Source of the DNA: Rhodovulum kholense
Lineage (GTDB): Bacteria > Pseudomonadota > Alphaproteobacteria > Rhodobacterales > Rhodobacteraceae
DNA length: 64,000 nucleotides
Direction of reading: 5' to 3'
Assembly (NCBI RefSeq): GCF_003053725.1
Contig: NZ_QAYC01000003.1
Span: 248,001-312,000, forward strand
Shown here: in pieces, positions 57,057 through 63,620 of the stretch
How positions within the stretch are numbered: position 1 is the stretch's first letter
Layout of the letters: each line of letters begins with the position of its first letter
Translations under genes and position numbers: made by a program
Notes under the pieces: generated by a model
Told to the model about the DNA's origin: nothing
Seen by the model: only the letters and a program-made list of their open reading frames with translations
The model's database searches: none

Positions 57057-57482
57057 GGGCGCCCGGGTTTCTGCCCGCCGTTCCGACCTGCCTTGCCAGA
57101 TCGCAGCCTTTGCGGGGAAAGGCCCGCGCGCGGGGCGGCCGTCGCCGAGGTGCGACCTCTCAGCGGCGCATCGGCTGCCCGGCCGCCGGGCAGCGACGGC
57201 CACATCTGCCCAAAGATGCGGCAGATGTCAGCGCCCCCGCGGCCGGGCGTCAGGGCGGGGATGGTGGGCTCGCGGGGCTCGGCTAAGAGAAAGGGGTCCG
57301 TCGGCCTTGGCCGGGGGGCCTGCGGACGCGGTCGGGATGGGGACGGGCCGGATCGTTTCACGCAGCCTTCAAGTTCTGCGTTGCACTTACGGGTTCAGAT
57401 GATACCTTTTTGGGCAACGGACGCAGAGCCGACAAGAAGAGCGGCCCCAAAAAGGGGGCGCCAGAACGACAGGGGATACCGG
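57057..57482 (+). other. 426-bp structured leader region before the ABC operon
   Basis: No gene found. Several inverted repeats are clustered: GCCGTCGC (57138-57145) with GCGACGGC (57193-57200), GCTGCCCGG (57174-57182) with CCGGGCAGC (57186-57194), and a perfect 9-bp stem ACATCTGCC (57202-57210) with GGCAGATGT (57220-57228). A further small hairpin GCCCC/GGGGC (57444-57459) lies just before the ribosome site. The first may end the upstream gene; together they could form a structured 5' leader. Confidence 0.45.
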
Positions 57483-58577
57483 TTGACCGGAACAAGCGAC
57501 GGTTTCGTGGTCTTCGACCGCGTGCAGAAGAGCTATGACGGGGAAACTCTCGTCGTCAAAGACCTCAATCTCTCCATCGGCAAGGGTGAGTTCCTGACCA
57601 TGCTCGGGCCCTCGGGGTCGGGCAAGACCACCTGTCTGATGATGCTGGCCGGGTTCGAGACCGCGACCCATGGCGACATCCTTCTGGACGGCAAGCCGAT
57701 CAACAACATCCCGCCGCACAAGCGCGGGATCGGCATGGTGTTCCAGAACTACGCGCTTTTCCCGCACATGACGGTGGCCGAGAACCTGGCCTTCCCGCTG
57801 GAGGTGCGCAAGATCGGCCGGGCGGACCGCGAGGCCAAGGTGCAGCGGGCGCTGGAGATGGTGCAGATGGGCGCCTTCGGCGGCCGCCGCCCGGCGCAGC
57901 TGTCGGGCGGTCAGCAACAGCGGATCGCGCTGGCCCGCGCGCTGGTCTTCGAGCCCGAGCTGGTCCTGATGGACGAGCCGCTGGGCGCGCTCGACAAGCA
58001 GCTGCGCGAGCACATGCAGTTCGAGATCACGCGGCTGGCGCATAATCTGGGGATCACCACCGTCTATGTGACCCATGACCAGACCGAGGCGCTGACCATG
58101 TCCGACCGGGTCGCGGTCTTCAACGACGGCCGCATCCAGCAGCTGGCCCGGCCCGACGAGCTTTACGAAAAGCCCGTGAACAGTTTCGTCGCCCAGTTCA
58201 TCGGCGAGAACAACACGCTGCTTGGCCGCGTCAAGGAAATCAACGGCACCGCGCTGGTCGAGCTGGACGATGGCGAGGTGATCGACGCGATCCCGGTCAA
58301 CGTCAGGAACCGCGGCGACCGCACGCTGGTCTCGATCCGGCCCGAGCGGGTCGAGATCGACCCCAAGCGGCTTACGCCCGGGGCGCATCTGATCCATGCC
58401 GAGGTGCTGGAATTCATCTATATGGGCGACATTTACCGGACCCGGCTTCGGGTCGCGGGCAACGACGATTTTGTCATCAAGACCCGCAACGCCCCCGACC
58501 AGCGTCGGCTGAGGCCCGGCGAACATATCGAGATCGGCTGGCTGCCCGAGGATTGCCGCGCGCTGGACGCGCCCTGA
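57483..58577 (+). CDS. Spermidine/putrescine-type ABC transporter ATPase (PotA-like)
   Basis: ATP-binding subunit of an importer for polyamines or similar small cations. The 364-residue product has Walker A GPSGSGKTT near residue 39, VFQNYALFPHMTV as Q-loop, signature LSGGQQQRIALARAL, Walker B LVLMDEPLGALD, switch His VTHD and a C-terminal TOBE domain (about 280-355). The start is a TTG at 57483 with AGGGGA 6 bp upstream; it gives the usual family length, whereas the upstream ATG at about 57399 has no ribosome site and adds unrelated residues. It is the first gene of ATPase, binding protein, DUF1330, permease, permease. Confidence 0.92.
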   Translation: MTGTSDGFVVFDRVQKSYDGETLVVKDLNLSIGKGEFLTMLGPSGSGKTTCLMMLAGFETATHGDILLDGKPINNIPPHKRGIGMVFQNYALFPHMTVAENLAFPLEVRKIGRADREAKVQRALEMVQMGAFGGRRPAQLSGGQQQRIALARALVFEPELVLMDEPLGALDKQLREHMQFEITRLAHNLGITTVYVTHDQTEALTMSDRVAVFNDGRIQQLARPDELYEKPVNSFVAQFIGENNTLLGRVKEINGTALVELDDGEVIDAIPVNVRNRGDRTLVSIRPERVEIDPKRLTPGAHLIHAEVLEFIYMGDIYRTRLRVAGNDDFVIKTRNAPDQRRLRPGEHIEIGWLPEDCRALDAP

Positions 58578-58654
58578 CAGCTTCCGGTCGCGCCTCGCCC
58601 GGGGGCGATGGCCGGAGCAACACGGATCCGGGCCAAGTCAGCAGGGAGATCGCA

Positions 58655-59782
58655 ATGACGATCCGACATCTTCTTTCCGCAACCGCTCTGGCGGCACTGC
58701 CCGCCGGGTTTGCCCTTGCCGAGGACCTGCCGCCCTGCGAGGGCTGTGCCGACGGCCTCACTGTCGTCTCCTGGGGCGGCGCCTACCAGACCAGCCAGCA
58801 GAAGGCCTATTCCGAGCCCTATGCCGAGATGACCGGCACCGGCTTCACCTGGGACGAAAGCTCGAACGAGGCGGTGGCCAAGCTGCGCGCCATGAACGAG
58901 GCGGGCAACATCACCTGGGATCTGGTCGATGTCGAGGGCCCCGACAGCCAGCGGCTCTGCGACGAGGGCCTGGCGATGGAAGTGGATCTCGACGAGATGC
59001 TGGCGGCCGCGCCCGACGGCACCCCGGCGACCAAGGATTTCGGCGACAGCGTCATCAATGACTGTTTCGTGCCGCAGATCGTCTTCTCGACCACCTTCGG
59101 CTACCGTACCGATGTCGCGGCCTGGAACGGCAAGGAGCCCGAGAATCTCTGCGCGCTGTTCGATACCGAGACCTTCCCCGGCAAGCGCAGCCTCGAAAAG
59201 CGCCCGAAGAAGAACCTCGAATGGGCGCTGCTGTGCGACGGCGTCGAGAAGGACGACCTGTACGATGTGCTCGACACGCCCGAGGGTGTCGATCGCGCGC
59301 TGGCCAAGCTCGACACCATCAAGGACGACGTGATCTGGTGGTCGGCGGGCGCCGAGACGCCGCAGCGCCTGGCCGATGGCGAAGTGGTGATCGGCTCGAC
59401 CTATAACGGCCGGCTCTTCAGCCTGATCGTGGAACAGAAGCAACCCGTGAAGATGCTGTGGGACTGGCAGGTCTTCGACTATGACGGCTGGATCATCCCC
59501 GCCGACCTGCCCGAGGACCGGCTGAACCGGGTGATGCACTTCCTGCATTTCGCGACCGACACCCAGCGCCTGGCCGATCAGGCCAAGTATATCTCTTACG
59601 GCCCGTCACGCGCCTCGTCGCAGCCGCTGGTGTCGACCCATGCCGAGCTGGGCATCGAGATGGCGCCGTTCATGCCCACCAACCCCGCGAACCAGAAGAA
59701 CTATCTGGTGAACAACATCGAATGGTGGGCCGACAACCAGGACGACGTCGAGGCCAAGTTCCAGGCCTGGCTCGCCCGCTAA
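58655..59782 (+). CDS. Periplasmic substrate-binding protein of the polyamine-type ABC system (PotD-like)
   Basis: Captures the substrate in the periplasm. The 375-residue product has a signal peptide (residues 1-22, ending FALA) and mature text GLTVVSWGGAYQTSQQKAY, WDLVDVEGPDSQRLCDEGLA and YNGRLFSLIVEQKQPVKMLW, matching the PotD/PotF-like family 1 binding proteins. Cysteines near the mature N-terminus (CEGC) are an odd local feature. Start ATG 58655 has AGGGAG about 7 bp upstream. Spermidine, putrescine or another amine could be the ligand; sequence alone does not say which. Confidence 0.92.
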   Translation: MTIRHLLSATALAALPAGFALAEDLPPCEGCADGLTVVSWGGAYQTSQQKAYSEPYAEMTGTGFTWDESSNEAVAKLRAMNEAGNITWDLVDVEGPDSQRLCDEGLAMEVDLDEMLAAAPDGTPATKDFGDSVINDCFVPQIVFSTTFGYRTDVAAWNGKEPENLCALFDTETFPGKRSLEKRPKKNLEWALLCDGVEKDDLYDVLDTPEGVDRALAKLDTIKDDVIWWSAGAETPQRLADGEVVIGSTYNGRLFSLIVEQKQPVKMLWDWQVFDYDGWIIPADLPEDRLNRVMHFLHFATDTQRLADQAKYISYGPSRASSQPLVSTHAELGIEMAPFMPTNPANQKNYLVNNIEWWADNQDDVEAKFQAWLAR

Positions 59783-59897: not shown

Positions 59898-60188
59898 ATG
59901 CCCAAGGGGTATATCATCGCCCATATCACCGTGACCGATCCGGAGGCCTACCGCGAGTATGTCGACCGCGACACGCCGATTCTCGAAGGCTTCGGCGGGC
60001 GGTTCATCGTCCGCGGCGGCGCCTCGGAAGCGCCCGAAGGCCCGATGAAGGACCGCCATGTGGTGATCGAGTTCCCCGATTTCGAAACCGCGAAACGCGC
60101 CTTCCATTCGCCCGAATACCAGGAGGTCGCGCGCATCCGCCACGCCACCGCGTTCAGCGACATCGTTCTGGTCGAGGGCGTGGCATGA
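59898..60188 (+). CDS. DUF1330 domain protein inside the ABC operon
   Basis: A 96-residue protein made of one DUF1330 domain, a ferredoxin-like alpha+beta barrel: YIIAHITVTDPEAYREYVD at the start, GGRFIVRGGASE in the middle and HVVIEFPDFETAKRAFHSPEYQE near residue 54. Function unknown; dimeric alpha+beta barrels of this type include small enzymes acting on hydrophobic or amine compounds. AGGGGGA precedes the ATG. It overlaps the next permease gene by 4 bp (ATGA), so it is co-translated with transporter genes and may act on the imported substrate. Confidence 0.9.
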   Translation: MPKGYIIAHITVTDPEAYREYVDRDTPILEGFGGRFIVRGGASEAPEGPMKDRHVVIEFPDFETAKRAFHSPEYQEVARIRHATAFSDIVLVEGVA

Positions 60189-61873
60189 CGGAAACTGCCA
60201 CCGCCCCCGCAGGCACGGACACGGGCCCGGTCCTGGCCGCCGACGGCCTGCCGCTCAAGCGCAGCCTGCGCCGCGCGCTGAGGGCGCAGAAGCTGCGCGC
60301 GCTGATGCTGATCGCGCCGCTGCTGATCTTCATCCTGGTGACCTTCATCGCGCCCATCGCCGACATGCTGTTCCGGTCGGTCGAGAACCAGATCGTCGCC
60401 GAGACCCTGCCGCGCACCGCCCGTGCGATCCAGGATTACGACCCCGACAGCGGCACCATGCCCTCCGAGGCGGTGCTGGCGGCCTTCACCTACGACCTGA
60501 CCGCCGCCAGCGAGCGCAAGCTGCACACCCGGCTGGGGACGCGGCTGAACTATGAATATACCGGGGTTTCGTCGCTGTTCCGCAAGGCGGGCCGCCGGGT
60601 CGATGATTTCGGCGAGACCTATCGCGACCAGTTCGCCGCCGTCGATCCCGCCTGGGAAGAGCCCGCCACCTGGATCGCGCTGATGGCCGACCCGGACTGG
60701 GTCGCCGAATACCGGGCCTGGACCGCGGCGGGCGAGGCCGCCAAGGCCGCGCGGCGCGAGTTCACCCAGGCCCAGCCGCTGTTCCGGCTGCGCGACGAAG
60801 TGGCGGACGTGCTGCCCGAGACCGCCAGCGCCTATGCCGAATTCGCCCGCATCGCGCAGGTCGAGGATGGCGACGATCCGGCCGCCGAGGATCCCTGGGC
60901 GCCGGTCTATCTGGCGCTTTACCGCGATCTTCTGCACGTCGGACCGGGCGCCATCGCCCAGCTCGGTCCCGAGGCCGAGGCGATGCTGGATGCCGCCCAT
61001 GACGCGGTCGAGGGGTTCGAGACGGTCAACCTTGCCGATCTCTATCTCGAGGCCGACAAGGACTGGGGCGATCCGGGGGTCTGGGGCACCATCAAGACCT
61101 TCTCGTCTGCCTATACGCCGGGCTATTTCCTGAACGCCGTCGATCTGCAACTGACGCCGGACGGGGTCGCGGCCCAGCCCGAGGACCGGCAGATCTACAT
61201 CATGCTGTTCGAGCGGACGCTGTTCATGAGCCTGATGATCATGGGGTCCTGCGTGCTTCTGGGCTATCCGATCGCCTATCTGCTGTCGAACCTGCCGCTC
61301 AGGACCTCGAACCTGCTGATGATCCTTGTGCTCTTGCCGTTCTGGACCTCGCTTCTGGTCAGGACCTCGGCCTGGAAGGTGTTGCTGCAGCAGCAGGGCG
61401 TGATCAACGACATCCTCGTCTGGCTGGGGATCGTGTCGAACAGCGGGCGGCTGATCCTGATCAACAACCAGACCGGCACCATCATCGCGATGACGCATAT
61501 CCTGCTGCCCTTCATGATCCTGCCGCTTTACTCGGTGATGAAGACCATCCCGCCCTCCTACGTGCGGGCCGCGAAGAGCCTTGGCGCCACCAACTGGACG
61601 GCGTTCTGGCGGGTTTACTTCCCGCAATCGGTGCCGGGGATCGGCGCGGGCTGCATCCTCGTCTTCATCCTGGCCATCGGCTATTACATCACGCCGGAAC
61701 TGGTCGGCGGCACCTCGGGCACCTTCATCTCGAACCGGATCGCCTATCATATCTCCAGCTCGCTCAACTGGGGCCTCGCGGCCGCTCTGGGCTCGATCCT
61801 GCTGGCGGTCGTGCTGATCCTTTACTGGGCCTATGACAAGCTCGTGGGCATCGACAACGTGAGCCTGGGGTAA
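60185..61873 (+). CDS. Polyamine-type ABC permease (PotB-like) with a long periplasmic insertion
   Basis: First permease subunit of the importer. The 562-residue product is much longer than classical PotB (about 285). TM1 lies at residues 38-62; residues about 66-335 form a charged, mostly helical domain with no membrane segment, expected in the periplasm; the remaining five membrane segments follow from residue 338. The EAA-type loop YVRAAKSLGATNWTAFWRVYFP is present near residue 455. TPGYFLNAVDL just before TM2 is a subfamily trait. It overlaps DUF1330 upstream and ends 5 bp before the second permease. The insertion may contact the binding protein. Confidence 0.93.
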   Translation: MTETATAPAGTDTGPVLAADGLPLKRSLRRALRAQKLRALMLIAPLLIFILVTFIAPIADMLFRSVENQIVAETLPRTARAIQDYDPDSGTMPSEAVLAAFTYDLTAASERKLHTRLGTRLNYEYTGVSSLFRKAGRRVDDFGETYRDQFAAVDPAWEEPATWIALMADPDWVAEYRAWTAAGEAAKAARREFTQAQPLFRLRDEVADVLPETASAYAEFARIAQVEDGDDPAAEDPWAPVYLALYRDLLHVGPGAIAQLGPEAEAMLDAAHDAVEGFETVNLADLYLEADKDWGDPGVWGTIKTFSSAYTPGYFLNAVDLQLTPDGVAAQPEDRQIYIMLFERTLFMSLMIMGSCVLLGYPIAYLLSNLPLRTSNLLMILVLLPFWTSLLVRTSAWKVLLQQQGVINDILVWLGIVSNSGRLILINNQTGTIIAMTHILLPFMILPLYSVMKTIPPSYVRAAKSLGATNWTAFWRVYFPQSVPGIGAGCILVFILAIGYYITPELVGGTSGTFISNRIAYHISSSLNWGLAAALGSILLAVVLILYWAYDKLVGIDNVSLG

Positions 61874-62739: not shown

Positions 62740-62830
62740 GCGGGCGGGGCAGAGCCCCGTTCTCCGCTTGACGGAACAACCGCCGCGCCTGTCTTGTTGT
62801 AAGGATGTCTACGGCAAGGGAGGGGAGGCC

Positions 62831-63265
62831 ATGAAACCGTTCAAGACACTGGTTCTCGTCGCCAACGAGCGCGAGGCCCGACTGCTGGTCAATCTGGGTC
62901 CCGGCAAGGGGCTGAGGGAGGTCAGCCATTTCCAGAAGACGCGCGAAATCGAATATGCCGACGGGCGCGGCCGCGACCAGGGCGGACCGGCGGCCGGGCG
63001 CCATGCGCTGGAGCCGACCACAAGCCCCCGGACCCAGAACCGCGAAAGTTTCGCGACGGACGTGCTGAGCGTCACGGCCGAGGTGTGGGCGCGGGGGGAT
63101 TACGACCGCTTCGTGATGACCGCGCCGCCGCAGATGCTGGGCGAATTGCGCAACCGGATCGAGGGCCCGCTTGAGCGCGCGCTTGCCGTCGATCTGAACA
63201 AGGACATCGTGGGGGTTGCAGCGGCGGACCTGCCTCGCCATTTCGAGGAAGTGATCGTGTTCTGA
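62831..63265 (+). CDS. Host attachment protein family (AtsE-like)
   Basis: A 144-residue protein of the host-attachment protein family named after Agrobacterium attachment genes. It begins KTLVLVANEREARLLVN and has GRHALEPTTSPRTQNRESFATDV in the middle and FVMTAPPQMLGELRNRI near residue 96; the last part resembles eRF1/baeRF-like nucleic-acid folds. The name is historical; a direct role in attachment is uncertain. GGGAGG is right upstream of the ATG, and it lies 91 bp after the ABC operon and 52 bp before the DUF4389 gene. Confidence 0.88.
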   Translation: MKPFKTLVLVANEREARLLVNLGPGKGLREVSHFQKTREIEYADGRGRDQGGPAAGRHALEPTTSPRTQNRESFATDVLSVTAEVWARGDYDRFVMTAPPQMLGELRNRIEGPLERALAVDLNKDIVGVAAADLPRHFEEVIVF

Positions 63266-63317
63266 GACGGGATGCGTGGGGTATCCCGGGAATGCGGTCG
63301 CAGCGGAGGCTGGACCT

Positions 63318-63620
63318 ATGACCGATACCAACTCGACGCTCAACGACGGCGCGCGGGCATCGGGCGCCCAGGAAACGGGCTACCGTCCCGCGCTGATCCG
63401 GGGGGGCTGGATGCTGTTGATGCTGGCCCTCTTCTATGCCGCGCAGATGATCCTGATCATCGCGGCCGTGCTGCAATTCGGCTGGCTTCTCTTTGCCAAG
63501 GAAGAGAGCGAGAGGATCGCCGAATTCGGCGACAAGCTGGCCAACTGGATGGCGATTGCCGCGCGCTACCTGACGGTGACGAGCGAAGCCAAGCCCTTCC
63601 CCTGGACCGACTGGAAATAA
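63318..63620 (+). CDS. DUF4389 membrane protein
   Basis: A 100-residue protein with one strong hydrophobic stretch (about residues 30-58, possibly a hairpin of two) and an amphipathic C-terminal half containing KEESERIAEFGDKLANWMAIAARYLT and a FPWTDWK end, as in DUF4389 proteins. Function unknown. Start ATG 63318 has GGAGG 8 bp upstream; an earlier ATG at 63276 lacks a site. It is probably co-transcribed with the host-attachment-like gene. Confidence 0.82.
   Translation: MTDTNSTLNDGARASGAQETGYRPALIRGGWMLLMLALFYAAQMILIIAAVLQFGWLLFAKEESERIAEFGDKLANWMAIAARYLTVTSEAKPFPWTDWK

Follow-up and report, generated by a model that had tools for sequence, protein, structure and literature searches.

Described importers and the present locus

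The structural model for this group of importers, E. coli PotABCD, lacks the domain that is the subject of this work. Its permease PotB has the six-TM core of a type I importer with an EAA loop, and shares an operon with PotA, PotC and a binding protein; its P1 loop is short and carries no periplasmic domain, and the docking of PotD onto PotABC works without one (PMC11414716). A soluble domain does occur at this place in MalF, where P2 (residues 91-271), lying between core TM1 and TM2, contacts MalE (PMC3150292). As for substrates, five polyamines have been proposed as cargo of SAR11 PotABCD, a view that its authors call untested (PMC8437039), and the potFGHI system of Ruegeria pomeroyi (SPO3466-3469) is a proven importer of cadaverine, putrescine and spermidine (PMC10130141).

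The window, i.e., the whole stretch of 64,000 nucleotides of Rhodovulum kholense DNA that was analyzed, encodes a permease of this kind together with its partners (Table 1). Like E. coli PotB, it has a six-TM type I core with an EAA loop and lies in an operon with PotA-like, PotC-like and binding-protein genes; unlike E. coli PotB, it carries a large domain in the P1 loop. R. pomeroyi is a related roseobacter, but its importer is named potFGHI, whereas the order in the window is ATPase, binding protein, permease, permease, and the two are possibly different systems.

Table 1. Features of the importer operon (positions refer to the window; residues to the PotB-like permease)
Feature	Position	Strand	Evidence
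PotA-like ATPase (start approximate)	57426..58577	+	TIGR01187 potA, 375.9 bits, above cut-off
Periplasmic solute-binding protein, SBP_bac_8	58652..59782	+	PF13416 E 1.3e-51; 8jv1 E 8e-69
DUF1330 protein, between binding protein and permease	59898..60188	+	PF07045 E 2.8e-32
PotB-like ABC importer permease, 562 aa	60185..61873	+	ORF; PF00528; phmmer to E. coli PotB
Copy 1 of the ~135-aa domain, residues 64-167	60374..60685	+	Single-form HMM positions 1-105, i-E 8e-37
Whole periplasmic insert, residues 66-335, TM1 to TM2	60380..61189	+	Hydropathy; AF2 domain model
Linker between copies, residues 168-205	60686..60799	+	No HMM coverage
Copy 2, residues 206-338, C-terminal part joins TM2	60800..61198	+	Single-form HMM positions 8-140, i-E 5e-19
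PotB core, TM2-TM6 with EAA loop, residues 337-562	61193..61870	+	Pfam, phmmer, structural alignment; conservation
PotC-like partner permease, 286 aa	61879..62739	+	PF00528; NF007047 PotC 151 bits

The permease, its operon and the likely substrate

The permease is a PotB-type subunit of a type I ABC importer of the PotB/PotH group. PF00528 matches residues 361-552 with 61.3 bits (gathering score 26.4), and phmmer aligns E. coli PotB (8y5f/8y5i) with residues 337-554 (E 6.5e-39 to 8y5i). In the structural alignment, model residues 34-560 correspond to PotB 7-279 (Z 15.2, 234 residues), so that the likeness flanks the insert on both sides. The PotB equivalog NF007044 is not reached (165.5 bits against a curated cut-off of 348), and its match begins at residue 336. 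Six TM helices are found both as hydropathy segments and as model helices, and the EAA loop, RAAKSLGATNWTAFWRVYFP, occupies residues 461-480. Among relatives the core is better conserved than the insert (mean 0.90 vs 0.61).

The order ATPase, binding protein, PotB-like and PotC-like permease is kept in nearly all of the best 80 relatives, with the optional DUF1330 gene at the same position in 44 of them; in the window the start of the permease overlaps the stop of this gene. Some operons whose permease has the domain once also hold a DUF1330 gene.

The closest solved relatives of the binding protein are 8jv1-8jv4, named spermidine/putrescine-binding (no publication on 8JV1 turned up), followed by GABA, polyamine and opine binding proteins. 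The importer probably belongs to the polyamine/opine/GABA group. Two kinds of loci whose permeases bear the domain once are of help here. The first is a PotA-PotD-PotB-PotC operon, in the same order as in the window, from a SAR11-like genome of 1.2 Mb with 31% GC; its PotB has an insert of 133 aa, its binding protein scores 599 bits against 8jv1, and genome size, GC and gene content suggest that it is SAR11 PotABCD. The second comprises loci that resemble agtABCD of Pseudomonas (GABA/5-aminovalerate uptake), where it is a putative AgtC that has the domain and the gene order is regulator, SBP, ATPase, SBP, permease, permease, rpe, trpE, with rpe-trpE as in P. aeruginosa. These loci match the agt layout described for Pseudomonas (PMC11113362), and their gene order suggests orthology to agtABCD. 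Because of binding-protein homology, of these two kinds of loci and of the 4-aminobutyrate aminotransferase gene that adjoins the Rahnella copies, polyamines and omega-amino acids are the probable substrates of the domain-bearing subfamily; the substrate of the importer in the window would likewise be a polyamine or an omega-amino acid.

A large helical domain between TM1 and TM2

The original prediction, made from the sequence alone, placed a hydrophilic, mainly helical segment at residues 66-335, between TM1 and TM2, and this proved exact. By hydropathy, TM1 lies within residues 34-67 and the next hydrophobic segment begins at 339, the best 19-residue window between them reaching 0.83. The 270 residues of the insert are soluble and almost wholly helical: the AF2 model of the domain (275 residues) is compact (mean pLDDT 93.4, pTM 0.87), and its sole beta element is a small hairpin adjoining TM2. 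The fold was judged on this domain model alone, because in the full-length model, built on a shallow alignment, the TM core was weak. In every type I permease the EAA loop faces the cytoplasm; counting back from it, the TM1-TM2 loop is therefore periplasmic.

That ordinary PotB has a short loop here, as was also predicted, holds true within the same genome, where four PotB/PotH-like paralogues have only 23-24 residues at this position (two further rows were not used owing to poor alignment or cut frames), and for E. coli-type PotB and PotH, which are without the domain.

What is this domain? Profile searches of Pfam, NCBIfam, PHROGs and PDB with the insert alone, the check proposed at the outset, gave no credible match. 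Relatives turned out to be widespread in Pseudomonadota. Neither Foldseek, run with the insert against PDB (best E 0.65) and viral models (best E 0.52), nor VIA-align (best Z 3.3) gave a match, which is no proof that the fold is new. DR2231, a PDB match at E 0.18, was set aside as helical noise. Across 74 sequences 31 alignment columns of the insert are invariant, and its best-conserved residues (RLNYE, S..FRK.GR, W, YT.GYFLNA.D) are mostly basic, aromatic or structural.

Two tandem copies of one domain

The insert consists of a domain of ~135 residues repeated in tandem, a conclusion that we hold with high confidence. The motif F-x3-D-x2-W-x2-P-x2-W and the order of helices appeared to recur within the insert, and therefore the alignment was split at residue 200/201 and its halves were compared. 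With hhalign, residues 66-200 and 201-335 match with a probability of 93.6 (E 2.1e-7), collinearly, columns 5-101 facing columns 5-101. The score of 46.1 is to be read against at most 20.2 in 200 column shuffles of one half and 14.4 for a reversed half. A profile built from 44 permeases bearing the domain once recognizes the first half with E 4e-46 (positions 3-106) and the second with E 3e-30 (6-137), and in the AF2 model the helices of the two copies follow the same order.

The single-form HMM gives two strong matches in each doubled sequence listed, and in the permease of the window it covers positions 8-105 twice. In permeases with inserts of 226-237 residues both copies are again present and the linker between them is shorter, as is clearest in the locus L139 (positions 1-103 and 7-140). 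Two-piece matches that skip a linker stretch occur in about 31 genera among the rows listed for same-family genomes. Could an unrelated helical module instead have been inserted into a single domain, the two being alike by composition? The N-terminal half of copy 2 is indeed degenerate, and there are sequences in which the HMM confidently recovers no more than the C-terminal half, but a collinear match between halves far above the shuffled controls, and HMM positions 8-105 matched twice in one protein, make this very improbable.

The novelty is thus that the insert duplicates in tandem a domain that many proteobacterial relatives carry once. This two-copy make-up had been missed in the original prediction.

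Distribution and evolution

The 80 best relatives come from genome contigs of Rhodobacterales and Stappiaceae, with Rhodovulum visakhapatnamense (93% identity) at one end and Stappia and Roseibium at the other. All of them have a large insert in frame, which therefore reflects neither chance nor a frame error; the possibility that it is peculiar to the source genome was rejected on the same count. A relative of the insert is present in 251 of 296 same-family genomes; among the rows listed ~79 are full-length, ~31 have 226-237 residues, and most others ~135. Further afield, matches were found in 85 of 385 genomes of the class and 74 of 398 of the phylum, as well as in Burkholderia, Rahnella and Rhizobium plasmids. 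Overall, the single form (131-142 residues) sits at the same site in hundreds of permeases of Pseudomonadota, and the doubled form (226-294 residues) in the Rhodobacterales lineage and some neighbours.

PotB-like permeases with a periplasmic domain make up a large subfamily that Pfam and NCBIfam do not describe, and a domain found in hundreds of importers is still without an entry there and without a solved structure. To this extent the distinct transporter subtype that had been proposed stands. It stands less well in that the domain, in one copy, belongs to operons like those of SAR11 PotABCD and AgtABCD: the presence of the insertion in characterized PotB homologues, which was said to speak against distinctness, was found halfway, as a single form of 131-142 aa in operons seemingly orthologous to studied ones.

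How did the doubling come about? A tree of the permease core was built by a quick method, with the insert left out and with long outgroup branches. Everything outside a Rhodobacterales-centred group has the single form, and within this group the forms alternate, with six changes between doubled and single. The doubling is thus most likely derived, and would since have been lost, replaced or transferred several times, a direction that so quick a tree leaves unproven. That long and short forms are separate paralogue families was considered and rejected, since they are mixed in one tree of orthologous operons.

The clearest pair is that of Phaeobacter italicus (L042), with the doubled form, and a same-family genome (L096/L130) with the single one. 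Their binding proteins are 93.9% identical, their ATPases 96.5%, their PotC-like permeases 92.6%, and their PotB-like permeases 88.5% outside the extra copy. Near-identical binding proteins serve permeases with one copy and with two, and therefore copy 2 is no strict requirement for docking: comparison of these operons marks it as an optional add-on. Such natural pairs allow the role of the domain to be tested directly, with no mutant design.

Copy 2 is also the fastest-evolving part of the protein (mean distance 0.89 vs 0.17 for the core), and the two forms differ in charge. Doubled inserts are strongly acidic (mean net charge -29.9, or -11.7 per 100 residues) and single ones nearly neutral (-4.6 and -3.4, respectively), a gap with which a tuning or electrostatic function would be compatible.

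Possible roles of the domain

We see in the permease a known pump in elaborated form and not a new kind of machine. The explanation that we prefer, with a probability of roughly 0.6, is that its P1 loop holds a helical domain of ~135 residues, widespread in Pseudomonadota, whose tandem duplication in Rhodobacterales and some neighbouring groups has given inserts of 226-294 residues. The membrane-proximal domain would offer the binding protein a docking surface at the entrance, as MalF-P2 does with an unrelated fold, and copy 2 would be no new receptor but an acidic, optional extension by which this surface is enlarged or tuned.

The docking role rests on position, since the fold search gave no structural precedent. 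MalF residues 269-505 align with residues 330-541 of the permease model, which puts the insert at the same topological place as P2; a sequence relation between the two was looked for and none was found, and MalF-P2 holds beta-sheets (PMC3150292) where the insert is nearly all helix with one small hairpin. Once core, PotC and ATPase distances are removed, insert distances vary with binding-protein distances (partial r 0.33, p 0.001); with the distances of the ATPase, taken as a control, they do not (partial r 0.035, p 0.31). This fits docking, and could also reflect a shared periplasmic environment or simply two fast-evolving proteins. A point against a docking role is that the E. coli system docks PotD without such a domain. 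With the contact judged from the site, by analogy, we lean slightly towards a docking role for the single domain, and copy 2 is probably just modulatory. The clamp on the binding protein that had been suggested at first is compatible with the MalF-P2 site and with a divergence that tracks the binding protein and not the ATPase; near-identical binding proteins work with one copy or two, however, which leaves no place for copy 2 as an essential clamp.

Perhaps copy 2 plays no part in transport at all, and is neutral or adaptive for the envelope, such as an acidic shield suited to salt, whose gain and loss would matter little. The alternation of forms on the core tree between near-identical operons, the fast divergence of copy 2 and the far more acidic character of doubled inserts all favor such a reading. 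We consider it unlikely, though by no means negligible, given that the doubled form occurs in more than one-third of the sampled family genomes, is in frame and has invariant residues, and is for these reasons probably under selection.

The insert had also been proposed as an extra receptor, and one may picture it as binding a cationic substrate and passing it to the gate, because the doubled domain is strongly acidic and the presumed substrates are cations. The model is helical, however, not of the periplasmic-binding-protein fold and without a structural match, and single forms work with the same kind of partners while lacking the charge; together these two points disfavor a receptor, and the most conserved residues, mainly basic, aromatic or structural, do not speak for one either. 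We regard this role as improbable. Equally doubtful is that the doubled domain is a two-site platform, which holds two binding proteins or keeps one near the gate; were it so, internal copy number of a domain would tune the capture rate of a type I importer, and the natural single/double pairs would be affinity variants. Least probable among these roles is that of an anchor, by which the domain would tie the importer to some other part of the envelope, such as the DUF1330 protein, a sensor, or an outer-membrane or cell-wall partner: DUF1330 genes do recur in the operons of the best relatives (44 of 80) and two-component system genes do flank the Pseudomonas-like operons, but nearly half of the doubled-form operons lack DUF1330, some single-form ones have it, its product is small and probably cytoplasmic, and a published test found no contact between AgtB and AgtS (PMC11113362).

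Other features of the operons

Two minor observations concern the surroundings of the permease. In roseobacters the PotC-like partner (e.g., L042:7578-8792, L031 and L014) often has a glycine-rich N-terminal extension of ~115 residues that resembles four TM helices, its ORF being 405-409 aa long against 286 in the window. After the operon, at 62828-63617, the window holds a baeRF_family12/Host_attach-like and a DUF4389 gene, an arrangement shared by only 2 of the 80 relatives.
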